In this document: piece by piece, positions 9,727 to 51,346 of the stretch
How positions within the stretch are numbered: position 1 is the first letter of the stretch
Layout: each line of letters starts with the position of its first letter
IMG/VR virus record: IMGVR_UViG_3300047548_000290
Span: 1 to 51,513 of that record
Length of the DNA stretch: 51,513 bases
Reading direction: 5' to 3' (one strand)
Source of the DNA: a virus
Notes under the pieces: model-generated
Seen by the model: the letters and a program-made list of their open reading frames with translations, nothing else
Database searches by the model: none
Told to the model about the DNA's origin: nothing
Translations under genes and position numbers: made by a program

Positions 9727-12700
9727 TAGTCAACCTCCACTTCTAGTTTTTCAACATCGATGCGTTCAGCATAGACGATGTAGAAACATTCGAAGTTTTT
9801 GTTCCTAATGTTACCGCTCTTGATATAAACTTTATTATCTTCTATCTTGTCAACGTAGAGTTTATGATGTTTACCAATTGGTGTTAGTTGAACAGTTATG
9901 GAATTTGGATCAACCAGTTTTGTCCAATATTCAGGCAACTCAATGGTGTTTTGATTGACAAGTTTACCACGAACGTAGACACCATTTTCTGGACCTTCAA
10001 GAGATCCGTAACGGAGTTTTTTGCCAGGTTTTGTTGGATGGTTGATAACGAATGACTTTGTAGTAGCCGCAAATGAACCGTTGACTTCTAGTTTGTATGT
10101 GGTTGAAGTTGTACCGATAGAAACATTACCTGAGGCATCAATACGCATTTTCTCTGTAGCATTTGTGTAGAACAGCATTGGAAGCGCCGTCATACCATTC
10201 AAGTAGACTGCACTTGCTCCACTGAATACTTGAAATGCGTTTGTTCCGTTTGTCTGTAATTGTAGAACACCGCCAGAGGTACCATTTATGGTAAGCGTAT
10301 TATATCCAGAATTATTGACTGGATTAGTTGTTCCAATACCAAAATCACCATTAGTGGTAAGTCGAGCGCGTTCGATTTGGTTTGTGTAAAATGTCATAGG
10401 TAGCGCAGTACCACCGTTTGCCACTTGTGCTTGTATGCGCGCATCTGTGGCACTTGCAAGTAATCCAACACCTGCTATAGCAGAAGATGGATCACTATTA
10501 TTCCAACAATATAATTGTGAAGTTTGACTTGTTCCATTTGGTAATACACCTACAGCCGTTTGTGTATTTGTGCCGCTTGATTGAAAAAATACTCGGTTTG
10601 CAAATGTGGCATTACTAAAGTCGCCAGTGATGCGCGGCGCGGTGCCACCAAAAGTAAATGTTCCTGTGGCATCCGCTGCAATGCGAAATTTTTCCGTGCC
10701 GCTCGTGTAGAACGTCATTGGGAGGTAAGTGCCAGTGCCTGTAATATTAGAATAAAGAACTACTTGATTGTTATCTAATGCTACTCGTGTTTGAAACGTA
10801 GATGTATTGCCAGGATCAGAGCTTGACGCATAAGCTATAAAGCCTGCCGCTGAAGATGTTCCGTTTGGTAATACATGCACATATGATGCGCCATTTGTAG
10901 TGCTTGTTTGAAACATCAAGCGATTAGCAACCGTCGCATTGCTAAAGTCACCAATGATGCGACGACCTGTACCTGTAATTGTAGTATTACCAGCAATTTC
11001 AAGAGCAGGTTGTGTTCCTGTCTGTGTAATTCTGAGTGCTGAGTTGGTATTGTCGGCAACAGAGATAACGACATTTGATGTGTAAGTTGTTGAGTTGGCT
11101 TTAACAAATGCTGCAATAGCAATTGTATTTGCACCAGAAACAGCAGCAGAAGTAAATGCGTTAGCACCAGCACCAACGGCAGTATTGGCACCTGCAATTG
11201 TAGCTGAAGTAAAAGCATTAGCACCGATGCCTGTATTATAAGCAAGAAGATTAGCTGCATTGGCTTGGTCATATGCTGATCTAATCCATAGAATAGTATT
11301 CTGACCACCAAGAGTTAAGTTGCTAGTAATCATATCAGCGTTCAGAACGGCCAACGTCATGTTGTTTGACATCGCACCAATATGATTGTTTATAGGTTCT
11401 TTATCATAACCATTAAATAGATAATACATCTTATTCTCATGTTCACGATAAAGACCTGTGTGAACATTTGAACCTGTTGCATTAACATAATTAGCAATAA
11501 AACCAATGTCTACAACGTCAGATGTATAATTGTTACCAGCAAGATAAATGAGAGGATCATCAATTTGAAGTCTAGTAGCATCAAGAAAAATTGTATTTCC
11601 TGATAATGTAAAATTGCCAACAATATTCAAATTACCTGTGATAGTTTGATTAGCCGCATCAAGCCTAACAAACGTTGCATTAGAATAGTTGTTAGCACCT
11701 GTTCCTACTGCTGTATTAGCACCAGCAATTGTAGCGGAAGTAAAGGCATTAGCACCAGCACCAACAGCAGTATTTGCGCCAGCTATTGTGGTTGATGTAA
11801 AATCATTAGAACTTGATCCAACTACATCGGCATATAAGTTTGCGCTAGTACCTACTGTGTCGGCATAAGAATTGGCACCTGCCCCAACGGCAGTATTAGC
11901 ACCAGCGATTGTTGCAGAGGTAAAAGCATTAGCTGATGTTCCTACTGTGTCGGCATAAGAATTGGCGCCAGCACCAACCTCTGTGTTGGCACCAGCTATG
12001 GTTGCAGAGGTGAAAGCATTAGCACTTGTACCGACTATAGCCGAATAAGCATTAGCACCTGTGCCAACAGCGGTATTAGCACCTGCAATGGTTGCACTAG
12101 TAAAAGCATTAGCCGATGTGCCTACAATATCAGCATAGGCATTTGCTCCAGTTCCTACGGCCGCATTGGCTCCTGCAATAGTAGCCGAAGCAAAGGTATT
12201 AGCTGAAATTCCTACTGTATCTGCATATGTATTTGCTGCTACACCTACAGAAGAAGCATAAGCATTAGCACCAACACCTGTATTATAGGCTAAAAGATTG
12301 GCCGAATTTGCTTTGTCGAAAACTTCTGATACATATGCAGTAGATTGCTTTGTGCCATCAGGAAAAGTTAAATCGCCAGCCGAATCAAGATTCCAAGTTT
12401 TTGTGTTAGCAACAAACTGAACGCGCTCAGATGAGAAAAGATAAGCACCATACTTGTTCATCTGGAATGATGAATAGTTTGGTGAACTTCCCCAATTTAT
12501 GTTAATGCTTCCCCAATAGTTTGGTGCACCCGCACTAGGACCTGTAAAATAAAAATCGCTTCCTGTAGGAATTTGAATACCATTAGGAACAGTCAGTGAC
12601 CCATCAGAGTTTAATACAAGATTATAACCAGAATTGCTAAGTTGGTGCAGACTTGATGTATTTCCAAGATATATTGTCTGACCATTAAGTGTAAATGGTG

Positions 12701-13424: not shown

Positions 13425-13915
13425 TAGAAGTCATCTGTTTGTGGTTTCTCTATGATTGAAGAGATTTCCTGTTCTAGAGGTAAAGAGCTTTCAACAGGTT
13501 CTTTATCAATACTCTTCTTTGCTTTGGTATTTATGGCTTTCTTGGCAGGTGGGTTTTTTAGTTGTTCTAATTCAGACTCCAATCTTGCGATTGTTTCATC
13601 TCTAGTCAGAATATCTTTTTTCATTTGATTTATCTGATTGAGAGCGGTTTCAAGATGGCTTACTTTATTGGCGACAGCATTATGAGCATCTTCCCATTTA
13701 CGAGCTTGATCGCGCACTTTAACGATTTCTTGATTATCTGCTTTGTTGGTTTCAAGATCGGCGGTGAGTTTGCTGATGATTTCGTCTTTTTCTGTTACGG
13801 AATCACCAGCAAGTTTAAGTTGAGTTTTCAATTGCAGAATTAGATTGAGGTTCTCATGTAATTGATTGACAGCAAAATCAATGTATGTATTAACAAATTT
13901 ATTAGCATCACTCAT
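13424..13915 (-). CDS. Coiled-coil protein between two fibre genes
   Basis: 163 residues, highly charged and heptad-like. Residues 15-125 (LHENLNLILQLKTQLKLAGDSVTEKDEIISKLTADLE ... SHLETALNQINQMKKDILTRDETIARLESELEQLK, broken here) predict a long coiled coil. A Lys/Ala-rich then acidic tail follows, ending EKPQTDDF. No catalytic motif. Small coiled-coil genes beside phage fibre genes often encode hinges, connectors or assembly factors, but I cannot assign this one. The ATG overlaps the stop of the upstream homing endonuclease (ATGA), so the inserted endonuclease may have taken over its translational coupling. Its end overlaps the start of the 1232-residue fibre. Confidence 0.75.
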   Translation of the reverse strand: MSDANKFVNTYIDFAVNQLHENLNLILQLKTQLKLAGDSVTEKDEIISKLTADLETNKADNQEIVKVRDQARKWEDAHNAVANKVSHLETALNQINQMKKDILTRDETIARLESELEQLKNPPAKKAINTKAKKSIDKEPVESSLPLEQEISSIIEKPQTDDF

Positions 13916-14556
13916 AATATAACTCCATTCACTTTTTTCTTATAAGGTCCACGTTTCTTACCTAAAACGGCTAACCTAAGTTTTTGTCTAGTTTCTTTAG
14001 AAACCACTTTACCTTTTTGTGCATCACCAATTTTTCGTTTAGATTCTTCGGTGTATTGTCTACTTTTACCGGCCGCGGCAATCTTTTGTTTTGCTTCTTC
14101 GGTATGTTTGAAACCTTTAACTTTTTCTGATAACAATGCGCGATGTTCCGGTGTCATTGTCTTAGAAACGGACTTAGAAAGTTTCTTTCTGGTTTCTTCT
14201 GATATAACTCTACCTTTATTAGCCTTAGAAATCTTTGCTCTTGTTTCTTCTGAGTGTTTATAACCTCTGGTAGAAGGTGTGCTAGACTTTAAAGTTTTAT
14301 TATAATACTTAGTGCAACATTCCGATGGTTTTATCATATTCAACCATCTTTGCTCCTCTAAAATCAAATCATCACTATTTGAATAAACTTTTTTTATAAT
14401 TTTGCGTTTGAAATCTTCAGGTCTTCTTCTATAAGATTCTCTCATAGAATTAGAAGAACAAATATAACCGTCGTTTTCTGTTCCCCAATGTCTTCCAAGA
14501 TAAAATTTTCTATGTTTCTTATCATACCATAAGTATATAAAACCATATTTTTCCAT
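13912..14556 (-). CDS. GIY-YIG homing endonuclease with NUMOD3 repeats (fibre locus)
   Basis: 214 residues from the ATG at 14556 (MEKYGFIYLWYDKKHRKFYLG). This start is chosen because a strong GGGAGG lies 6 nt upstream. The catalytic part has a GIY-YIG variant (FIYLW ... FYLGRH), then NDGYICSSNSM and YRRRPEDFKRKII, closely matching the endonuclease at 2139-2723. The C-terminus has five NUMOD3-type helices (KHSEETRAKISKANKGR, SEETRKKLSKSVSK, KHTEEAKQKIAAAGKS, TEESKRKIGDAQKGK, SKETRQKLRLAVLGK). The Shine-Dalgarno and start codon lie in a perfect hairpin (14554-14578), which suggests translational control as for T4 I-TevI. It overlaps the coiled-coil gene by 4 nt. Confidence 0.92.
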   Translation of the reverse strand: MEKYGFIYLWYDKKHRKFYLGRHWGTENDGYICSSNSMRESYRRRPEDFKRKIIKKVYSNSDDLILEEQRWLNMIKPSECCTKYYNKTLKSSTPSTRGYKHSEETRAKISKANKGRVISEETRKKLSKSVSKTMTPEHRALLSEKVKGFKHTEEAKQKIAAAGKSRQYTEESKRKIGDAQKGKVVSKETRQKLRLAVLGKKRGPYKKKVNGVIL

Positions 14557-14578
14557 TATAACCTCCCAAGTTATAATG
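14554..14578 (-). promoter_or_regulatory. mRNA hairpin holding the SD and start codon of the homing endonuclease
   Basis: On the minus strand the sequence is CATTATAAC, a 7-nt loop TTGGGAG, then GTTATAATG. This is a perfect 9-bp inverted repeat. The Shine-Dalgarno GGGAGG begins in the loop and the ATG at 14556-14554 forms the end of the 3' arm, so folding would hide the start. A TATATAC string directly upstream (about 14585-14579) could be a promoter that starts transcripts inside the 5' arm and so avoids the hairpin, as known for T4 I-TevI. The promoter part is speculative. Confidence 0.75.
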
Positions 14579-14599
14579 GTATATAGTAAAAGCGTGTGT

Positions 14600-16177
14600 C
14601 TAAAAACTTCCACCATCAAGCATTGCGAATAATGGTACACCTGTTGCTGATGCTTGGAGAACCTGACCCTCTGTTCCTGCTGATGTCACACTGATTGGTG
14701 ATAGTGTGTTGCCGTATAGAACACCGTTTAGTGTAAAATTCGTTTTACCTGTACCACCATGGTTAACATCAATTGTTGAGGCATTCCATGTACCAGCTGT
14801 TATTGTACCAACACCTGTAATGCCAGAATATGAACCAGAAATTCTAGATGAAGGAACTGTACCTGTTGAAAGATAAGAAGCATTGGCTGCATTTGTATCT
14901 GCGGTATTTGCAGCACCAAAGGCTGCAACTGCGATTGATGTGCCGGTGTTAGCCTGATCGTAACCAGCTGATGCAACAGCCTGCGCGGTATTTGCTGCTG
15001 TGAAACCTGCATTTGCTGCATTAAATACTATACCACCAAGCAATGTGGCGGTGTTAGCTTGATCATATGCGGCATTAGCTGCACCAAAAGCGGCAATACC
15101 TCTTGTCGTCGATGTATTAGCTTCACCATAAGAAGCATTAGCAGCATCAAATCCAGCGCCTGCTGCTGTTGTGCCTACATTAGCTTGATCGTATGCTGAA
15201 TTAATCCATACAATCGTGTTCTGACCACCAAGTGTCAGATTACTTGTTTTAAGGTCAGCATTAAGAACAGCTAGTGTAAATCCATTAGCTGTTGGATCGA
15301 TATGATTGTTTTCAGGTTCTTCGTTATAACCTTGGAAGACATAGTATTCTTTTGTACCAGCATCGCGGAAAATACCAGTATGAAGGTTAGCAGAACCGTC
15401 ATTATAATTGGCAATAAAACCAATATCTACAATATCTGAAACGTAGTTATTACCGGCTAGGTAAAGTAAAGGATCGGTAATTCTAAGTGTTTCGACGTTA
15501 GCAAATACTGTATTGCCAGAAAGGTTTAATGTACCAATGATTGAAACATCACCGGTAACAGTACCACCTGATGTTGATAGTCTTGTATTTGAATCGTTAA
15601 ACGCTGCTACTGCGATTGATGTACCAGTATTAGCTTGGTCATAAGCTGCAACACCTCTAGCAGAAGCGGTATTAGCTTCAGTATAAGCAGCGTTTGTAGC
15701 ATCGTAGTTAGAAGTGATTGCAAGGCTATTATTATAAGCAAATACGTTAGCAGAGTTAGCTTTATCGAAAGCTGCATTACCCGTTACATTTCCTGCAATT
15801 GCTATGTCAGAAACAAGGTTTGCAAAGTCAAATGATGCTACAGCGGTTGTTGTTCCTATATTGGCTTGACCGTATGCTGCAACAACAGCAGCATAATTGC
15901 TATTAGCAAGACCAAAACCTGCATTGGCTGTATCAAACGCTGCACTACCAACAGGATCACCAGTATTTGCTTTTTCAAAGGCCGCATTGGCAATATCAAA
16001 AATTGTATTTTGCTGATCAACGTAGAATTGACCGCCAATGGCAATGACACCAGTTCCTGATGAATCACCCAAAAACAGTTTATTTGAGACATATGAATAA
16101 GCAGGTTCGGCTGCACCTAGAGAGGGTGGCACGGCCGTGCTTATCGATCTCTTTATTTGAATGACTGTATTGGACAT
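14600..16177 (-). CDS. Repeat-rich tail fibre-like protein
   Basis: 525 residues. The N-terminus MSNTVIQIKRSISTAVPPSLGAAEPAYS resembles the 1232-residue fibre. Long stretches are built on AAYDQANTGTSIAVAAFGAANTA (about 80-195 and 335-425). Between them sits a domain (LNLSGNTVFANVETLRITDPLLYLAGNN ... NLTLGGQNTIVWINSAYDQAN) homologous to the 1232-residue fibre. The C-terminus has the fibre motif GITGVGTITAGTWNASTIDVNHGGTGKTNFTLNGVLYG and ends LDGGSF, like the LNGGTF end of the 78-residue protein encoded just upstream. No chaperone domain is seen. A structural fibre or spacer role is inferred. It starts directly after the 78-residue gene; a homing endonuclease gene follows. Confidence 0.8.
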   Translation of the reverse strand: MSNTVIQIKRSISTAVPPSLGAAEPAYSYVSNKLFLGDSSGTGVIAIGGQFYVDQQNTIFDIANAAFEKANTGDPVGSAAFDTANAGFGLANSNYAAVVAAYGQANIGTTTAVASFDFANLVSDIAIAGNVTGNAAFDKANSANVFAYNNSLAITSNYDATNAAYTEANTASARGVAAYDQANTGTSIAVAAFNDSNTRLSTSGGTVTGDVSIIGTLNLSGNTVFANVETLRITDPLLYLAGNNYVSDIVDIGFIANYNDGSANLHTGIFRDAGTKEYYVFQGYNEEPENNHIDPTANGFTLAVLNADLKTSNLTLGGQNTIVWINSAYDQANVGTTAAGAGFDAANASYGEANTSTTRGIAAFGAANAAYDQANTATLLGGIVFNAANAGFTAANTAQAVASAGYDQANTGTSIAVAAFGAANTADTNAANASYLSTGTVPSSRISGSYSGITGVGTITAGTWNASTIDVNHGGTGKTNFTLNGVLYGNTLSPISVTSAGTEGQVLQASATGVPLFAMLDGGSF

Positions 16178-20375: not shown

Positions 20376-23300
20376 TTACATTTGAATTGCAATGGCTCTC
20401 AAATCAGCCACTCTAGGAATAACAGCAGAATTTGTTGCAGTTAAGACAATCTTGATTGCAAAATACTTGTATCCTGTGAATGTTATTCCATTTTCATCAT
20501 ATTGATATTGGCCATCTGGTCCTGTCATATTTGAATTTGGTATTTTATAAACATATTCTCTAAAGTTAAATCTGTTTGATAGAGATGAATAGACAGAATC
20601 GCCACTCCCTTCTTTCTCAAGAAGTGTCCAGTTTTTCTGGTTAAAGGTTTCTCCATCAGAACCGTTCAAGAACTTAGCATATACAATCACATCAGTATTT
20701 GGTGGTCTGTAAGCACTTAGATAAACTCTCAAGTCTTCAGCATCTTGACCATCAGCCAGAATGATAGTTTGAGAAATATACTTATTTACCGCTTTACCGC
20801 CAGAAGGATTAGTCTCATCTGTTGTATCATCATTAATGATGTTATCAATATAAATTGAATGTGATGTATCAAGATCAAACACAGGTGAAACATATTGAGA
20901 ACCTGTCTGCATCGAAACACGAATTTGATTTGACTTAGAACCACTAAGATTTACAATTTCATTTGATCTACATAGTAGAACTTTTTCTTCCTCAAAATAG
21001 GTCGTTTCTGATGGGAAAATTGATTCAAATTGTCCTAAACTTGTTACAGCTGCATTAGATACTGTTCTCATTTCATAGTTTAAATCAGTCTTAATAAAAT
21101 CAAGAACCTTTGGTTCAAATGAGATAGAAGAATATCTGAAATCACCAACATAATCAACTTCACCTCTGTAAGTGTATCCAGAGTTTCCAAGGCTTCTAAT
21201 GACTGTGTTCTGAACAAATCCACCACTTGAATTTACAAACTCTGAATAGATATTCGCAGAAGTTTCACTATAATAACTTAACTTGGCTATACTATTTGTA
21301 ACAGATGCAACGGTTGCAGAAATACCTTTATATGAACCGTTGTTAGCATAAACATCAATTTTTTCACCAATCTGATAACCTGTATTAGACAAGGTGTATG
21401 AGCCGCCGCTAATTGAAACAACTTGACCATTAGCATTAGATGTTGAAGTATTTCCAAAGAATCTATCTGATATAGAAATGCTATTTGTTCCGTTTGCGCC
21501 AGATAGTAGTAATATATCACCAGTTGAGAAGTAATCACCAACTCTATTGCTTAGTGAAGAACTTACATTTTTCAAAATTAGCTTTTCAACACCCTTGTTA
21601 CCAAGAGTGATTGTACCCGTTGAAGTATTGAAGTTTGCTCTATAAACTGTAATTGGTGTATCAACATCTTCAACAATATCCCATTTTCTATTGTTTGTTG
21701 TTGAATAGAATTTACCTTTTCTTTGACGATCATTATATGCTTTACCTGTATTACGATCCTTTTCACCCATTCTGGCAATCCAGATTGCGGTGTCTGGGTC
21801 AATCTTTGCGCCTGGAGGGCTGTCAGAGTGAATGATAAATGCATAGTCGGTGTTATTGAAAAGGAATACAGGTGAATCAAATCTTACCTGCATTGGGTTT
21901 GTCAAGCCGTCTGGAGAAACTTGAATTTCTGGATTTCTATATCTCTTCTCAGAACCAGGAATTTGTGTATTCGTGATAATACCTGAGCTATCAATTTCAC
22001 GAATTTCAAACCACATGCCGCGTGTCTGAGATTTTCTCTGAACATAAACATCAAAGCCTGTGCAGAACATACCTTCTTCATCGTTAGGAACTTTAACAAA
22101 GACTGTATAAGCAACACAGCAGTTATGAACAATATAACCTTCAACAACGTAAGTTGCATTGCCATCAAGGGTAAGGTCATAAACTTCATAGTCTGAAGCA
22201 AAGTCAACAATCTCCGCACCAAGGTCTTTGTAATCGACAAAGTTTTCAACAACCTTACCATCGACAATTTCAATGACTTTCATTTTGTCATCGTTGTCAA
22301 TACCGCGTGTCTTGTTTTCACCTTCAAGGAAACCAGCGTTAACAGCATCTTGAGCAATCAGCGTTTCTGGTGTCCAAGTTTTCCAACCTTTTTCTGTGAG
22401 GAAAAGATGGTCATCTGTCGAATAGAAACCTGTATCTCTGAACTTGACCATCTTTCTTCTTTGAACTGTGGTCTTTTTCAGCTTTGTAACTGTGTTGATG
22501 AAACCATCAGCACCGATTACTCTTTCACCAGGTTGAATATCTGCAATGCGCTTATATGTAAAGTCTGCCATGAGAACTTTAGCATTAGGATCAAAGCAGC
22601 AGTGACCGTGATAAGCTGGAGGCGTCCATGTGTTTGGTAGATATGTTTCTGTGAACGATCTATTTTCTTCATATGTTCCAGTTGTCGGTGTTACTTTGGT
22701 GCTCTTTGTAGAATATACAGTTTTTTGTAGAACTTGTTTTGTTCCGTCTGCAAAGAAGTCACCAGCAGCCATTGTCGAAGCATCGGCTTCATTTGATAGC
22801 TGATCAGGATCAATTTGTTCACCATCAATGATAGTTAACTTTCTTTCACCTGTTCTAAATTTACCTTTTTCAATTCTATAAGCAAAATAGATGTTACCAT
22901 CATTTTCAACAATCAAATTACTACCTTCGGCTGCGATACCTGTTGCAGGAAGATTGCTTGTTAAATTTGTATATTGTGCTTCTGTTAAAGGTGTGCAAAA
23001 CTGACTTACATTGATACCATCAAAGAAGGCATTCATCTTACTATATGGTTTCAAATTATAACCGCGAACATAAAGCGTCTGAGGTCTAATGTAAGGAATA
23101 ACTTCACTAGAAATCAGTTTATTAGAACCAACTGCCGTATCTGTGCTTGATGATGTGAAGTAGTTTGTACCACGTCTAGAATCAACAATTACTGCCTGAA
23201 TTGTGGCTGAACTACCAAATTGCTGTGTTGTCCATTGACTTGCAGCCTGTGCAGCCTCGGCTTGTGTGCGATATACACCAACCAATCTCTTATTGGCGCC

Positions 23301-26300
23301 TTCACCTCTGTAGAGATTATATCCTGTGATGTTTCTCTGCCAACCTTCCCAAACCGTATAACTTGCACCTTTTGTAATTGCAGCAGCAGTGTCATCACCA
23401 GGATTACTCGTGTCAATATCAAGTAGTGCACCGTCAGAAGTAATACTGACGACCTCATCAGGTGCATAAGAAGTGTCTACCCAAACATCTTGTTTTGGGA
23501 AAATATCAAGTGTGCCTCTGAAAAGATAGTTACCTCTTTCAATATTTCTACTATCCGTAACATCTGTTTGTTTTAAATATTCTGCTTCAGTATATGAAAG
23601 AAGTGCAACACCATTTTTAGTTACGACACCTGATGATGAAATTGTATCATATCCAATAGATTCTGTGGAGAATAATGGTCTGATAGTAAGTTCAATTGGA
23701 TCATTCGCAATTCTATAATCTCTATCGACTCCGGCAGCTGACAAGGCAGTATCACGGAAAGTATCGATAAAGATACCGTTTTTAAAGCGATCTAAGCCAG
23801 TTTCAGCGTCTATGATCTTAAGATTTAGAGCATCTTTTTCAAGTAGTGTTAGAGATGTATAATATTCAAGGTTTTTAATTCTTTCATCAAGAATACCAAT
23901 ATCACGCATGGTATAGCGACGATTTGAAACTTTTCTTGCCGAACAAGCCAAATCTTTTCTTTTCAAAATGTTACCATATGCAGGCGATAGAGAAGGATAA
24001 GGAGCAACATCAACGATAGCCAACATCATCTGTGTTTCCAGAGAATCTGGAACAACAGGATTCATGTCGGGCACACCCTTGATAACATTAAACTGTCCTG
24101 TCTTATTTGCAACAACAACATCTTTACGACCAAGGTAGTATGAGTAGTCGTAAATAACTTCGGTTGAAGGTACTACAAATTTTAGACCAGTTGCAGCAAA
24201 TGTATATGTTGTCGATGTGTTAGAAGGATTAGTTGTAGCCGCTCCAATAGATGTTGCATCGGCAGCAGTAATTGTTTTAACTGGTCTAAAATCGATATGA
24301 TTTCTTAGATCATATGATGCACGACTTGTTGAAGATGTATAAATTGGAACATTTTCTGTTCTGATAGTTGAGTTAGAACTTAAAGCATCATTATCTTGAA
24401 TTGGATATGAATCAATTGTATAAAAACCTGCTTTACCTGAAGTAGTAGGTTCAAAATAGTCCAATTCTACTAGCAAGAAGTCAGATGCGCTCAGTGTAAT
24501 TGATCCTGACTTGAATATTCTAGCCAGATCATACATTGTATCTCTCTGGCCGTTATCTAATGTAAAGTAATTAGTTACATTAGTTCCATCAGAAAGAGAA
24601 GTTGGTGCTGAACCTGTTTTTCTAATGATGTTTCTAATCTGATAAACGTCTGAGAAACCAAGATTGAAAGGACCAGTTGTACCAGCGGTCGCACAACTAA
24701 TCTTAACGTATCTATTTGGTTTCAAAGTCTTTAACTTTTCAGCTGAAGATGTTGAAGCAACCTTATATGTAATTGTAATATCTCTGTCTGAACCAAGATT
24801 TTCTTTAAAATCTATAGTTAGTGTGGTTGGTGTTGCTTGCACCGTTCTCTGAGCACCAGCATCAACACCTTTACCATTCAGATTGATAATATCACCTGTT
24901 TTGTAGGCTTTAAAGATCACATTATTGGTAACAGATGCAGGAACAGTATTAGATACTGTCAATGTGGTATTGTTTGCAATAGATGTAATATAATAGGTGT
25001 TTGCAAGACCAGCAATCTCCAGTTTATCACCAACATTTAAACTTGTAAATGTTGTTCCAATACCATTCAATCTATTACCTGATGCTGAAACTGTGGCTGA
25101 AGAAAATAGAGGACCAATGTTAAAGGTCTCGTTAATAGTAACCAAGAGGTCTTGTGAAATATCTGCCGCAGATAGTGTAGATGTTCCGTATGGTAAAATA
25201 TCATTTGTTGGTAGTGCTGGAGCAAAAACCAAAGTGCCACTAGATGGAACAAAAAGTGTAGATGAGATACCATCTGTTTTAGAGTAGTAATATACTGTTT
25301 GAGGATTACCGTTAACATCTCTTATAGTTTTTGCATAATCTGTTCCCACATAATACAGAAGAGGAGCTTGAGTTAATCCACCAAAAGATGTATTTGTTGA
25401 GGCGTTATTAGCACCAACAACGTCAGCACCAATATCAGAATGTGGTGAATTATCGTAGTAAAGACTTCTAATATTGCCAACAGCATTGGCACCTGTCATT
25501 GTAACATCTGAAAGATAAATGTCATAAACAGCATCATAACCAGGTGTGCCGCTTACATATTGAATAGAATGAACTATAGCAGAACCAATTTTGCTACCAG
25601 TTTGAGCACCAGTAGACCATTTTTGAGAAACAGTATTTCCGCCAGCAGTGATTCTTTTTTGAACTTGATCATAGAAATCAACTCTTGAACCTTTGTCAAG
25701 TTGCCATGAGCCGACCATTTCACTGACTCTTAGGTATTGTCCCATAGAGGCAGAAATAATTGAAGATTCGACATTTCTAAAGTCTGTTGGTTTTTCAACT
25801 TCAATAGTTATACGATCTCTTACATCAACGGCATAACCTTGCACATATGCATAACCAGGGTCAACAGAAACAACCAAGAGTTGATTATTTCCATTTGCAT
25901 AAAGACCGCGGTTGTCTACCGGAGTTGTAATTTTATCATGTTCACTAACTTGAACATTCAAACCTCTAACAACATAGTCTCCAGACTCATCATATGTTCT
26001 ATCGGCAAATCTCTTACCAAGTTCATTATAGTCAGCTTTTTCATTTGTTAGTTGAATTACGCCGTCTCTGATCGTAAAGAGAGTTACGAAATCTGGCGCA
26101 CCGGCAGGATCATCAAACGGAAGAACTGACAAAGTGCTTAGAAGTTTAAGTCTATCTGCGCCAGGAGCAGAATAGTTAGATGATTCCAATGCTGGGTCTA
26201 ACAATGAGGAATCTTGAGCAGCATTGATAATTTCTTCTGAAACGTAGAAGCCAACCTTACAAGAAGGATTTGGATTATAGCGGTCAAGAACGATTGATTG

Positions 26301-26963
26301 AGTTGGAAAATAGATAAAGTGTTCTTTGGCAAAATAAACACCTTCTTCAATTTGAAACCAAGATGCATATCCTGTGTTAGCTACAGGATCATTGTCTTTA
26401 ACAATACAAGTTCCTACATTTGCCGAAGAAAGTGTTTCACCTGCAATGAAAACTCTTTGTGCGCTGTTTGACGATGAAGCACTCAAATATGTAACATAGA
26501 GTGTGGCAGAGTTGGCTGCTGTACCGTCTGGAACGGCCACATCAACAACGTATGCAGCAATATTACTTGTAAGACCTGTTACGGTCTCACCAACAAAAGA
26601 TTTAACATCGATGACATTGTTTGAAGTGTCAACATCTTTTAACTTAACATAATCCATAGGGTTGGCTTTTTCTTCACCCCTATTGACCTTGAGTGTGAAA
26701 CCGCCTGGTAAAACAATGCTACCTTCTTTAAAAACGTGTCGTCCAAATCGATAGATTTGATTTTGCAACATCGATTGAATTTGTGTCAATTCTCTAGCCT
26801 GAACAGCAAATCCTGGTTTAAAAAGGATTCTATAAAACTGTTTATTAGGATCATAATCGTCATAATATGGTATGACGTTAAAATCGGTCGTCAACGAAGT
26901 ATTGGTCAGATTCGTTGTGTTACCGGAAGCAAATTGACTAGATGAAATGACTGGATCGACCAT
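20376..26963 (-). CDS. Large DUF4815-type virion protein with an inserted mini-intein
   Basis: 2195 residues, or 2036 without the intein. The N-terminus has the DUF4815 signature (YDDYDPNKQFYRILFKPGFAVQARELTQIQSML, split here, with FGRHVFKEGSIVLPGG). After the intein the C-terminal part resumes with CCVAYTVFVKVPNDEEGMFCTGFDVYVQRKSQTRGMWFEIREI and PSGTxxFRADPVxLFNNTDYAFII-type strands. That domain is shared with large structural proteins of T4-like cyanophages and of phages of other marine and soil bacteria. The middle is a long series of beta domains. It is probably a baseplate-proximal or fibre-attachment protein, because it lies between gp8 and the fibre genes. The intein (1456-1614) is annotated separately. 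The start ATG has an AAGG about 12 nt upstream. Confidence 0.8.
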   Translation of the reverse strand: MVDPVISSSQFASGNTTNLTNTSLTTDFNVIPYYDDYDPNKQFYRILFKPGFAVQARELTQIQSMLQNQIYRFGRHVFKEGSIVLPGGFTLKVNRGEEKANPMDYVKLKDVDTSNNVIDVKSFVGETVTGLTSNIAAYVVDVAVPDGTAANSATLYVTYLSASSSNSAQRVFIAGETLSSANVGTCIVKDNDPVANTGYASWFQIEEGVYFAKEHFIYFPTQSIVLDRYNPNPSCKVGFYVSEEIINAAQDSSLLDPALESSNYSAPGADRLKLLSTLSVLPFDDPAGAPDFVTLFTIRDGVIQLTNEKADYNELGKRFADRTYDESGDYVVRGLNVQVSEHDKITTPVDNRGLYANGNNQLLVVSVDPGYAYVQGYAVDVRDRITIEVEKPTDFRNVESSIISASMGQYLRVSEMVGSWQLDKGSRVDFYDQVQKRITAGGNTVSQKWSTGAQTGSKIGSAIVHSIQYVSGTPGYDAVYDIYLSDVTMTGANAVGNIRSLYYDNSPHSDIGADVVGANNASTNTSFGGLTQAPLLYYVGTDYAKTIRDVNGNPQTVYYYSKTDGISSTLFVPSSGTLVFAPALPTNDILPYGTSTLSAADISQDLLVTINETFNIGPLFSSATVSASGNRLNGIGTTFTSLNVGDKLEIAGLANTYYITSIANNTTLTVSNTVPASVTNNVIFKAYKTGDIINLNGKGVDAGAQRTVQATPTTLTIDFKENLGSDRDITITYKVASTSSAEKLKTLKPNRYVKISCATAGTTGPFNLGFSDVYQIRNIIRKTGSAPTSLSDGTNVTNYFTLDNGQRDTMYDLARIFKSGSITLSASDFLLVELDYFEPTTSGKAGFYTIDSYPIQDNDALSSNSTIRTENVPIYTSSTSRASYDLRNHIDFRPVKTITAADATSIGAATTNPSNTSTTYTFAATGLKFVVPSTEVIYDYSYYLGRKDVVVANKTGQFNVIKGVPDMNPVVPDSLETQMMLAIVDVAPYPSLSPAYGNILKRKDLACSARKVSNRRYTMRDIGILDERIKNLEYYTSLTLLEKDALNLKIIDAETGLDRFKNGIFIDTFRDTALSAAGVDRDYRIANDPIELTIRPLFSTESIGYDTISSSGVVTKNGVALLSYTEAEYLKQTDVTDSRNIERGNYLFRGTLDIFPKQDVWVDTSYAPDEVVSITSDGALLDIDTSNPGDDTAAAITKGASYTVWEGWQRNITGYNLYRGEGANKRLVGVYRTQAEAAQAASQWTTQQFGSSATIQAVIVDSRRGTNYFTSSSTDTAVGSNKLISSEVIPYIRPQTLYVRGYNLKPYSKMNAFFDGINVSQFCTPLTEAQYTNLTSNLPATGIAAEGSNLIVENDGNIYFAYRIEKGKFRTGERKLTIIDGEQIDPDQLSNEADASTMAAGDFFADGTKQVLQKTVYSTKSTKVTPTTGTYEENRSFTETYLPNTWTPPAYHGHCCFDPNAKVLMADFTYKRIADIQPGERVIGADGFINTVTKLKKTTVQRRKMVKFRDTGFYSTDDHLFLTEKGWKTWTPETLIAQDAVNAGFLEGENKTRGIDNDDKMKVIEIVDGKVVENFVDYKDLGAEIVDFASDYEVYDLTLDGNATYVVEGYIVHNCCVAYTVFVKVPNDEEGMFCTGFDVYVQRKSQTRGMWFEIREIDSSGIITNTQIPGSEKRYRNPEIQVSPDGLTNPMQVRFDSPVFLFNNTDYAFIIHSDSPPGAKIDPDTAIWIARMGEKDRNTGKAYNDRQRKGKFYSTTNNRKWDIVEDVDTPITVYRANFNTSTGTITLGNKGVEKLILKNVSSSLSNRVGDYFSTGDILLLSGANGTNSISISDRFFGNTSTSNANGQVVSISGGSYTLSNTGYQIGEKIDVYANNGSYKGISATVASVTNSIAKLSYYSETSANIYSEFVNSSGGFVQNTVIRSLGNSGYTYRGEVDYVGDFRYSSISFEPKVLDFIKTDLNYEMRTVSNAAVTSLGQFESIFPSETTYFEEEKVLLCRSNEIVNLSGSKSNQIRVSMQTGSQYVSPVFDLDTSHSIYIDNIINDDTTDETNPSGGKAVNKYISQTIILADGQDAEDLRVYLSAYRPPNTDVIVYAKFLNGSDGETFNQKNWTLLEKEGSGDSVYSSLSNRFNFREYVYKIPNSNMTGPDGQYQYDENGITFTGYKYFAIKIVLTATNSAVIPRVADLRAIAIQM
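22122..22598 (-). other. Mini-intein (Hint domain, no homing endonuclease)
   Basis: 159 residues, 1456-1614 of the 2195-residue protein. It begins CFDPNAKVLMADFTYKRI with Cys1. It has block B TDDHLFLT with the catalytic Thr-x-x-His near residues 61-64 of the intein, and ends with block F (YEVYDLTL) and block G (YIVHN). The next residue is Cys+1 (CCVAYT). All key residues for Cys-type splicing are present: Cys1, TxxH, terminal His-Asn and Cys+1. At about 160 residues there is no room for a LAGLIDADG or HNH endonuclease, so it is a splicing-only mini-intein. It lies between HGHC and CCVAYT, at the boundary with the C-terminal structural domain. Confidence 0.92.
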
Positions 26964-26979: not shown

Positions 26980-28305
26980 TTAGAATTTCACTACTATCTT
27001 AAAATCTTCTGTTTGATCGTCGGCTCTTTTAATAGGCGAAACATTATCAATATATAGTAGATTTCCAGAGTAGTCTAATAGTTCTTTGTTTCTTGTGATA
27101 GCTTCAACGAATCTGATTGCCGCACTGTTTATGCCGGTCAAAACACTCGATTGTATATCACCAACCACATTTGTTAGTTTAATAACATTATTACCTTTAT
27201 CCCAAGAAGATACCACTCCGGTGAAGCTAGGTGATTGTATTGATAGTCCTTGATAAACTACTTCATCTTGAATGTAGTCAACTGATCCTGGGCTTAAAAT
27301 TAATTGTAGTGTCTGAGAGTAACTGATACCGTTTGCAATATCACCTGAAACTTCTTTTGGATCTTGCAGGATAGAAACCTGTCTAAACTCGTTGTCAGTA
27401 GAAAAATTTCCACCTTCTGTATTAACTAGTCGAGGATTAAGTAAAATATATGAACCACCAAGTTCTCTCACTGGATCGCTACCATGTCCACCTGGAGGGC
27501 TTATCATAGCTCTGAAGTTTCCGCCAACACCATCACCTGTAACAGATACGTTTGCAAATGTATATGAACTGCCAGGATTTGTTAATAAAATCTGATCAAT
27601 TGAATTTGATGCATCTATAGTAGCCACGGCAACCGCATCTCTACCATCACCTGTAATCGTTACAGTTATGTTTGCAGCATTAGAATAACCTGAACCACCG
27701 TCTAAAACTTTGATAGCTTCAATACCACCATCAACAGCATTTTCTTGAACTTTCCATTGCAGCGAATTATTATCAACGGTTAGTGTTCGAACGGGTATAT
27801 AATCTTCCGTAGTAAATCTCAGTCTCTCACTCTCAGAGACGGTATACATATATTTCCAAACATAATTGTCCGCTTCTTGAATTGATGAGTTTATAACTGT
27901 CTGCGTTGGCATAATGGTTGAAGGTGCACCATTGTTGTTATTCAGACACTTGTAGACATTCCAATCAGAAGTGACTACAAAAAACTTAACATTTGCATCA
28001 AAAAGTATAAGCGAACAGGTGCAATGATCATACATATCATAAACTGTATTTGCAGTCCAATCATGTCTAGGTATAACGTGTCTAATATCGTTACCTGTGA
28101 TCAGTTTAGCACCAATCATATTCTTCCATACATCATTGAAAACAGTAACGGAAGAATTGGCTTGAATAGGCGCAGCATCATTTGGCCAAGGCGTTGGCTT
28201 ACCAAATGTCAAGTAAATATTTGTTGGGCCTGTTTGTGAAACAGATGTTAAAAACTGTTCAGCATTATATACTCGCAAGTTTTCAGAGAATACAGAAAAA
28301 GCCAT
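26980..28305 (-). CDS. 8: Baseplate wedge protein gp8
   Basis: 441 residues. It matches gp8 of T4-like phages: NIYLTFGKPTPWPND near residue 29, HVIPRHDWTANTVYDMYDH near 88, YVWKYMYTV near 150 and RFTTEDYIPVRT near 163. T4 gp8 (334 residues) is a dimeric wedge protein. The extra length comes from glycine-rich beta repeats around 195-270 (SGYSNAANITVTITGDGRDA) and a VYQG module around 345-410 of the type seen in gp14 and gp15. A late promoter TATAAATA lies 27 nt before the ATG and overlaps the stop of the gp7-like gene. Order 6-7-8 as in T4. Confidence is high. Confidence 0.9.
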   Translation of the reverse strand: MAFSVFSENLRVYNAEQFLTSVSQTGPTNIYLTFGKPTPWPNDAAPIQANSSVTVFNDVWKNMIGAKLITGNDIRHVIPRHDWTANTVYDMYDHCTCSLILFDANVKFFVVTSDWNVYKCLNNNNGAPSTIMPTQTVINSSIQEADNYVWKYMYTVSESERLRFTTEDYIPVRTLTVDNNSLQWKVQENAVDGGIEAIKVLDGGSGYSNAANITVTITGDGRDAVAVATIDASNSIDQILLTNPGSSYTFANVSVTGDGVGGNFRAMISPPGGHGSDPVRELGGSYILLNPRLVNTEGGNFSTDNEFRQVSILQDPKEVSGDIANGISYSQTLQLILSPGSVDYIQDEVVYQGLSIQSPSFTGVVSSWDKGNNVIKLTNVVGDIQSSVLTGINSAAIRFVEAITRNKELLDYSGNLLYIDNVSPIKRADDQTEDFKIVVKF

Positions 28306-48615: not shown

Positions 48616-49296
48616 TCACTCCTTGAAGGTGAATTTAGGTCTTTGTCCTTCTGGCTTGCTCTTTTTGTATTGAGTTTCACCGTATGGATTGTCCTTATTG
48701 TAAGCAGTCTTACCGTAAGTTACCTTCTCACCTTTTTTCTCTGTGCCTGTGTAGACCGCAGTTCCAGTTCCTTTAGGTGAACGATGAATGAAGGCATCTT
48801 GATCGTGGTGCTGTGAGAGTTCTTTTGCATGTTTCAAGAGTTCCGCAGAGTGTTCTTTGCTTGGGCTCTTGGCATAGACATGCAATGAGTTTTCTTTACC
48901 GACACCGCCGCCTTCATCCCACTTTCCTTCAGTCTTACGAAAGCCGTAGCCTCGCTCACGCCATTGCTTTTTGAGCGTATTCATTCTAGCACGGTTCTCT
49001 TTAGGTGTCAAGTTATGTCTTTCAGCAGACATGATAATTGAATGTTTACCTTCTTCATCCTGCTTTGTCATGCGTGAAAGTGGATTGCCTTCTTCGATGG
49101 TATCTTCCTCAAGGCTGCCGCCTCCACCACCGCCACCACCATCACCACCGCCGTTACCACCATCGCCGCCGCTTCCACCTTTGGAGCTTGCGCGAGTAGG
49201 AACAAGGTGCTTTGCATCGACCTTCTTACGGCCGATGATCATTGGATCTTCTTTTTCTTCTCTAATTTGTTTGAGGAGTTCTGATAGTGTTTTCAT
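48616..49296 (-). CDS. Protein with a Gly-rich linker and a DUF3293-like region
   Basis: 226 residues. The start MKTLSELLKQIREEKEDPMIIGRKKVDAKHLVPTRASSK is followed by a Gly/Asp linker at about 40-62 (GGSGGDGGNGGGDGGGGGGGG). The region SAERHNLTPKENRARMNTLKKQWRERGYGFRKTEGKWDEGGGVGKENSLHVYA (about 90-143) fits a DUF3293-type pattern (S-A-x-R ... ENxxRxxxLxxxLxxxGYxxxxxxGxW). The end is basic and disordered. The start overlaps the end of the cytidylyltransferase-like gene by 35 nt. Function unknown. Confidence 0.6.
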   Translation of the reverse strand: MKTLSELLKQIREEKEDPMIIGRKKVDAKHLVPTRASSKGGSGGDGGNGGGDGGGGGGGGSLEEDTIEEGNPLSRMTKQDEEGKHSIIMSAERHNLTPKENRARMNTLKKQWRERGYGFRKTEGKWDEGGGVGKENSLHVYAKSPSKEHSAELLKHAKELSQHHDQDAFIHRSPKGTGTAVYTGTEKKGEKVTYGKTAYNKDNPYGETQYKKSKPEGQRPKFTFKE

Positions 49297-50520: not shown

Positions 50521-51090
50521 TTAAACTTTCTCAATTCTATATTTTTTATGTTGCTTTCTTAATCCGTTTGCAACTCTCCACATAGAATGATAGTCTAGAT
50601 TATTTTTTAAACAAAAATCTTTTAGACAAAAAACATTATGTTTTAAACCTTGATTATCTATGATTATATAACTTTTAGCACCATTCAGACGACATTTTTC
50701 AGAATGTTCATCACTTTTCTTTTTATCTTTTAAAGATTGTGATAAACTTTTTCGCCACTTTTCATCTTTAATTTTACCTTTATGGCTAAGGCTCATTTTT
50801 CTTTTTGTTTGAGTTGAATGTTTACCACTAAAACCTTCACCACCATCAGTCATATTTCTTAATATACCAGTTTCATTATCTATTCTTCCATACCATCGAA
50901 TATAAAACCTTTCTAAAGCACATGCGCCTATATTACTGAGATTTTGTTCCATTATGATAATGCGAGACTTGTCAGCAGGTATTGGCCAAGAATGATTTTT
51001 ATCCCATGCTCTTTTTTTACGACCTTTTCCAATATAATAAGGAGTGCCGTCTTTTCTCAAATAGGCATATATGTAATATTCAAACTTCAC
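50521..51090 (-). CDS. GIY-YIG homing endonuclease (phoH-adjacent)
   Basis: 189 residues from the GTG at 51090 (VKFEYYIYAYLRKDGTPYYIGKG). The GIY-YIG core is complete: YYIYAYLRKDGTPYYIGKG, then KRAWDKNH, LERFYIRWYGR with conserved Glu, and ILRNMTDGGEGFSGKHSTQTKRKMS. A NUMOD3-type helix is followed by a C-terminal part (SYIIIDNQGLKHNVFCLKDFCLKNNLDYHSMWRVANGLRKQHKKYRIEKV) that may read DNA. The GTG start overlaps the end of the 88-residue gene by 11 nt, so the endonuclease seems inserted at that gene's end. It is of a different subfamily from the other two endonucleases here. Confidence 0.88.
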   Translation of the reverse strand: MKFEYYIYAYLRKDGTPYYIGKGRKKRAWDKNHSWPIPADKSRIIIMEQNLSNIGACALERFYIRWYGRIDNETGILRNMTDGGEGFSGKHSTQTKRKMSLSHKGKIKDEKWRKSLSQSLKDKKKSDEHSEKCRLNGAKSYIIIDNQGLKHNVFCLKDFCLKNNLDYHSMWRVANGLRKQHKKYRIEKV

Positions 51091-51346
51091 GCGGTATCGT
51101 CCAACGCTTTTCAAGCGCCGGAGTATGTGCTCCTGGCGCAGTCTCTTTAACCTTACCAACAACATATTTTGTAAAATCGGAAGGCGGTTTGGTAATACCA
51201 ATACCAACAGGATCAACAATATTCATGCGAAATACTTGATTTAAGTGAGGATTATCTTTTAGATATTGATCTAGTTCATTATAAGACATGGTAAGATCGT
51301 ATTCTTCCCCTGTATTAGTATTTTCAAAAGTATAAACTGGACACAT
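51080..51346 (-). CDS. Small conserved phage protein (FmdB-like start, no zinc ribbon)
   Basis: 88 residues: MCPVYTFENTNTGEEYDLTMSYNELDQYLKDNPHLNQVFRMNIVDPVGIGITKPPSDFTKYVVGKVKETAPGAHTPALEKRWTIPREV (broken here). The start PxYxFENxxTGEE and LxDNPHLxQVFxxNIxDPV are conserved in T4-like phages. It resembles regulators of the FmdB type but the zinc Cys pairs are missing. A perfect late promoter lies 18 nt upstream. Its end overlaps a homing endonuclease gene, which may have altered its C-terminus. Confidence 0.7.
   Translation of the reverse strand: MCPVYTFENTNTGEEYDLTMSYNELDQYLKDNPHLNQVFRMNIVDPVGIGITKPPSDFTKYVVGKVKETAPGAHTPALEKRWTIPREV

Follow-up and report, generated by a model that had tools for sequence, protein, structure and literature searches.

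The described systems closest to the element reported here are other class 1 mini-inteins, among them the Npu and Ssp DnaB inteins, the Mtu RecA mini-intein and gp41-1. They have the same fold (Z 15-16), Cys1, the TxxH motif and a C-terminal HN followed by Cys, and no endonuclease domain, whereas the new element is only about 20% identical to them and the block F His is absent from it. The hosts of class 1 inteins of the DnaB/RecA type are replication or recombination enzymes; in contrast, the host considered here is a tail/baseplate structural protein. Mini-inteins that occur naturally in T4-like phages, such as gp41-1, have proved useful in biotechnology. The inteins of mycobacteriophages are likewise phage inteins, some of them in morphogenesis genes (TerL, portal), and all phage intein hosts were described in that survey as nucleic-acid binding (Kelley 2016, PMC5050341). 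Unlike them, the present intein has a DUF4815 tail protein as its host, and endonucleases are absent from all members of its family. Fungal PRP8 mini-inteins are also allelic and have lost the endonuclease; they are expected to have lost homing, and the Cryptococcus copies follow the host phylogeny (PMC1508164), whereas the family described below is discordant with its own exteins. More generally, mini-inteins have been stated to be mainly vertical or to move with the host gene (PMC4071816). BIL domains share the Hint fold, as does a Hint domain found near the same site of a homologous phage protein (contigs L035 and L036). The latter ends in AHN/K and has no +1 nucleophile, whereas the present intein has Cys+1.

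The host gene and its genomic context

The analyzed window is the whole 51,513-nucleotide stretch of IMG/VR record IMGVR_UViG_3300047548_000290, and all positions given without a contig label refer to it. The phage is a T4-like myovirus. The host gene (20376-26963, minus strand) codes for a 2195-aa precursor of a DUF4815/phrog_358 'VrlC'-like virion protein. It is surrounded by a T4-like tail set (gp15, gp14, gp8, gp7, gp6, gp25, gp5, gp53, gp48 and others), and its neighbor at 26980-28305 (minus strand) is a gp8-like baseplate wedge subunit (phrog_438). Homologs in isolate phages usually adjoin the gp8 baseplate gene as well and are annotated as VrlC-like or as phage structural proteins. The earlier note placed the intein in a large virion protein. 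Homology to structural/VrlC proteins beside gp8 agrees with this, and the putative role of the host protein as a virion component is well supported. The closest isolate proteins, those of Ochrobactrum phage OC and similar phages, are about 27-34% identical, and near-identical DNA was not found in isolate phages. Elsewhere in the window, the 48616-49296 region matches the S-adenosylmethionine lyase family (Pfam 2.5e-8) and possibly codes for an anti-restriction protein.

A class 1 mini-intein in the VrlC-like protein

Precursor residues 1456-1614 constitute an insert that maps exactly to 22122-22598 (minus strand). It separates the 1455-aa N-extein (22599-26963, minus strand), ending in NTWTPPAYHGHC, from the C-extein (20376-22121, minus strand; 581 aa plus the stop codon), which starts with CCVAYTVFVKVP. 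The insert reads CFDPNAKVLM...STDDHLFL...VYDLTLDG...YIVHN/C; it ends in VYDLTLDGNATYVVEGYIVHN, followed by CCVAYT of the C-extein. Judged by sequence, Pfam matches, relatives and the AlphaFold model, this 159-aa element is a class 1 mini-intein reduced to the splicing domain, and we infer that it splices. It has the nucleophile at position 1 (Cys1 codon, 22596-22598), the block B TxxH motif (T61-D-D-H64, 22407-22418), the C-terminal HN of block G (His158-Asn159, 22122-22127) and Cys+1 as the first residue of the C-extein (22119-22121), all on the minus strand. Asp141 of block F (22176-22178, minus strand) is invariant within the family, while the block F His is replaced by A148. The splicing residues are all conserved among relatives that are about 50% identical.

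The isolated domain matched Pfam Hom_end_hint (9.8e-8, narrowly passing the cut-off), Hint (2.3e-4), Vint and Intein_splicing. Among the domain models searched, LAGLIDADG_3, HNH, HNH_3 and GIY-YIG had no match inside the intein. No endonuclease domain thus separates the splicing blocks, and the element lacks the endonuclease of its own that a homing intein carries. We also considered an endonuclease hidden in another frame and rejected it; the window has a 134-aa stop-free stretch in an alternative frame, but it is not conserved, and none of the alternative frames stays open throughout the relatives. The earlier note had described a splicing-only intein of 159 residues with Cys1, TDDH, HN and Cys+1 and without an endonuclease; that description holds, and its coordinates are exact.

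The AlphaFold model of the intein, derived from ten family members, has a pLDDT of 93.9 and displays the HINT fold. Solved inteins and BILs match it at Z 15-18, the best matches being BUBL1 BIL2 (Z 17.7), the Mtu RecA mini-intein (Z 16.0), NpuDnaB (Z 16.0) and gp41-1 (Z 15.6). When the intein was modeled together with its flanks, its pLDDT was mostly 80-90, whereas the flanks were modeled poorly (mean 56.5). Therefore, the insertion site is called a linker mainly on the basis of sequence.

The N-side junction of the window intein, HGHC/C, is ambiguous, as either Cys is a possible Cys1. The junctions of relatives are PPPYS/CFNP in L108, L109 and L119 and PPAYS/CFNP in L111. Since all four have Ser before CF, Cys1 must be the Cys of CF. 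Accordingly, the predicted ligated junction given as HGHCCVAYT has to be corrected to HGHC-CCVAYT, with three Cys residues. Cys(-1) is common; an essential or redox role was considered for it, and an essential one was rejected, because the same four copies have Ser.

Excision would start with an N-S acyl shift at Cys1, to be followed by transesterification to Cys+1, cyclization of Asn159 and an S-N shift. The resulting host protein would be 2036 aa long, with HGHC-CCVAYT as the rejoined extein sequence, lying in a linker that precedes the conserved DPxAQxF domain. The segment CCVAYTV (22101-22121, minus strand) aligns with the DP(I/L/V)(A/S)Q(S/T)F motif, which in intein-free homologs follows a plain linker at this site.

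In each of the seven members tested, the GC3 of the intein is higher than that of any equally long segment of the respective host gene. Genome-wide, the value of the window intein is not unusual, being reached by 8% of the 477-bp segments of the window.

Intein-bearing and intein-free homologs

Beyond the window, 16 IMG/VR contigs have an intein at the equivalent site of the same protein, and none of these inteins includes an endonuclease. One of the contigs has an identical gene and represents the phage of the window itself, one ends inside the intein and two share an identical protein; comparisons within the intein family rest wholly on such metagenomic contigs. All complete copies are 156-167 aa long and retain the splicing residues, and wherever a relative includes the C-terminal junction, Cys+1 is present. 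A scan of bacterial genome contigs yielded no relative, and a bacterial source was rejected on this ground. A search of the open-access literature gave no earlier description of an intein in the VrlC-like family. Both the mini-intein and its occurrence in this host protein are new.

Dozens of homologs have no intein. Pelagibacter phage HTVC008M, Methylophilales phage Melnitz-3, Sinorhizobium phiM12, Ochrobactrum phage OC and Shigella phage AG3 have a variable linker followed by DP(I/L/V)(A/S)Q(S/T)F. Among further homologs read at the site, only L016 and L017 have an intein, and L035 and L036 have a Hint domain. The most informative pair is the intein-bearing L016 (3300009183_000490) and the intein-free L140 (3300023184_000611), with nucleotide identities of 94.3% for the N-extein and 95.4% for the C-extein. 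The C-side junction of this pair is sharp, at DKGDPIAQSF, while on the N side about 17 linker codons differ (47% aa). The alignment with intein-free homologs proposed in the earlier note reveals empty sites with continuous flanks, including that of L140, against 16 contigs that carry the intein. Intein-free alleles, including the ~95% identical L140, show that the intein itself is dispensable for the VrlC-like protein, and they bear on the protein alone; where the intein is present, its splicing may be required for infectivity, as the earlier note proposed. The difference between L016 and L140 could be due to loss in L140 rather than gain in L016.

Hint domains of another kind were also observed. 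In L035 and L036, residues 1409-1562 of the VrlC-like ORF form a different, BIL-like Hint domain (CFIAGTEILM...VAHN/K) without a +1 nucleophile. Fibre-like or other small phage ORFs in L164 (3912-4805 and 6288-7031) and L148 (ORF at 10675) have C-terminal or nearly C-terminal Hint domains that do not end in HN/C. Hint domains that do not splice seem to be a recurrent feature around the tail genes of these phages.

Movement of the intein apart from its host gene

Overall, we are fairly confident that the element is a class 1 mini-intein that splices from a T4-type tail/baseplate precursor and that its family has been transferred among VrlC alleles apart from the host gene. This explanation draws on the observed fold, residues, empty sites and discordant divergence and phylogeny, with splicing as its predicted part.

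Evidence for recent movement comes from partial records of three metagenomes, L108 (3300025449_000031), L109 (3300032285_001032) and L119 (3300006071_000011). Their inteins are 97.3, 93.1 and 93.3% identical pairwise at the nucleotide level, compared to about 76-81% for the exteins, and at both edges of the intein the shift in identity takes place within ~20 bp. Of the codons for the same amino acid, 140/151 are identical between the L108 and L109 inteins, compared to 1131/1618 for their exteins (P = 4.5e-11); the corresponding values for the other two pairs are 121/148 against 1015/1591 (P = 5.4e-6) and 124/147 against 935/1530 (P = 5.6e-9). Nowhere in the exteins of these pairs does a segment as long as the intein attain the value of the intein. 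In 102 control pairs, the mean difference is only 0.02 (sd 0.07). This excess of identical synonymous codons, absent on average in the controls, argues against protein-level selection as the cause.

It might be argued that the exteins moved rather than the inteins, i.e. that VrlC alleles were swapped among phages and recombined around a resident intein. We consider this unlikely, if slightly less so than the other alternatives. In its favor, the gene has clearly been exchanged: L108 and L109 are ~100% identical outside VrlC over most of their length, with lower identity mainly in the genes that follow it, whereas their VrlC exteins are 81% identical, a difference of 19%. However, a retained resident intein would be ~100% identical like the backbone, and the L108 and L109 inteins differ by 2.7%. 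Moreover, crossovers would be needed near both intein edges in three lineages. The identities of this pair instead indicate that the common origin of the intein copies postdates that of the extein alleles and predates the split of the backbones. Collapsed assembly was rejected as well, as it would yield identity, whereas the differences are spread along the intein.

A separate observation on the same two records concerns the VrlC tail gene as a whole: L108 (4576-11205) and L109 differ by a recent whole-allele swap, the genes being only 81% identical.

Movement is also apparent at a deeper level. The window and L016 are 31% identical in their exteins and ~53% identical in their inteins. The exteins of L016 and L017 are nested among intein-free proteins and group with L053 and L045. 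Forcing all intein-bearing exteins into one clade costs 613 log-likelihood units (AU test, P = 2e-62), as computed with a 'quick' LG+G4 tree and a constrained group defined by intein presence. Intein history is thus discordant with host-gene history, and the mini-intein family has spread independently of its host gene.

These data bear directly on purely vertical inheritance, in which a full intein would have been inserted once in an ancestor, lost its endonuclease and since been inherited with the gene. The textbook view predicts such inheritance (Soucy 2014, PMC4071816), and part of the data conforms to it. The intein is present in all main-clade members found, and in most main-clade pairs intein identity (~50-60%) is similar to that of the exteins. 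Every close relative of the window recovered in extein-anchored searches carries the intein, and from the window, inteins and exteins have diverged about equally. Vertical inheritance therefore fits the window's own copy, which looks stably resident. As an account of the whole family, however, it is improbable and strongly disfavored: intein-bearing exteins do not form a clade, and L140 is a near-identical allele without the intein. Against strong selection on the intein, invoked to explain its low divergence among L108, L109 and L119, synonymous codons are conserved there too, unlike in the 102 control pairs.

A non-splicing, BIL-like Hint domain, which would either split the giant protein into two pieces or stay part of it, is similarly improbable: although the closest fold match is a BIL and the Hint domain of L035 and L036 lies near the same place, the window intein has splicing-type junctions and a +1 nucleophile, every complete relative keeps C1, T..H, D, HN and C+1, and L016 after predicted splicing (2065 aa) is nearly as long as the intein-free L140 (2063 aa).

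Possible sources of mobility

The mini-intein encodes no endonuclease, so its transfer must use recombination supplied by something else. Either a free-standing phage homing endonuclease would cut empty alleles, or ordinary T4-type phage recombination would suffice. Three homing endonucleases were suggested in the window, which is reasonable in view of three ORFs with NUMOD3, all on the minus strand: a free-standing candidate at 2139-2765 with NUMOD3 and a weak SegE-type GIY-YIG domain, another free-standing candidate at 13912-14640 with NUMOD3 repeats and a possible third at 50521-51219, which is below the Pfam cut-off. The three are Seg-like, and two of them lie among tail genes. A helper endonuclease acting in trans on the mini-intein is only a possibility. 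Trans homing is known for a cyanophage psbA intron. NUMOD3 is present in only 3/16 intein-bearing records, and its presence was rejected as the cause of mobility for this reason. NUMOD3, GIY-YIG, HNH, HNH_3 and LAGLIDADG_3 had no match in the partial records of L108, L109 and L119 or in the 140-kb G004 record.

In the deep transfer, a fuller intein may have moved first and lost its endonuclease afterwards. The recent transfer among L108, L109 and L119 would not easily be explained in this way, as the three copies are of equal length and show no scar. The suggestion that the intein is no longer mobile by itself therefore has to be revised: no copy contains an endonuclease, but the intein has moved separately from its host gene.

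Implications for mini-inteins

The host, a giant tail/baseplate protein as opposed to a nucleic-acid enzyme, is unusual for an intein. Mini-inteins are usually viewed as dead ends, inherited vertically or carried with the host gene (PMC4071816, PMC1508164). Here, two independent comparisons assign different ages to intein and exteins, and there is a twin allele that lacks the intein, so that mobility in the absence of a built-in endonuclease can be tested directly. We see about an even chance that this endonuclease-free mini-intein is still an active mobile element, spreading among divergent alleles of one virion gene with the help of a trans-acting endonuclease or by phage recombination alone. 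If true, this would contradict the view that mini-inteins travel only with the host gene.
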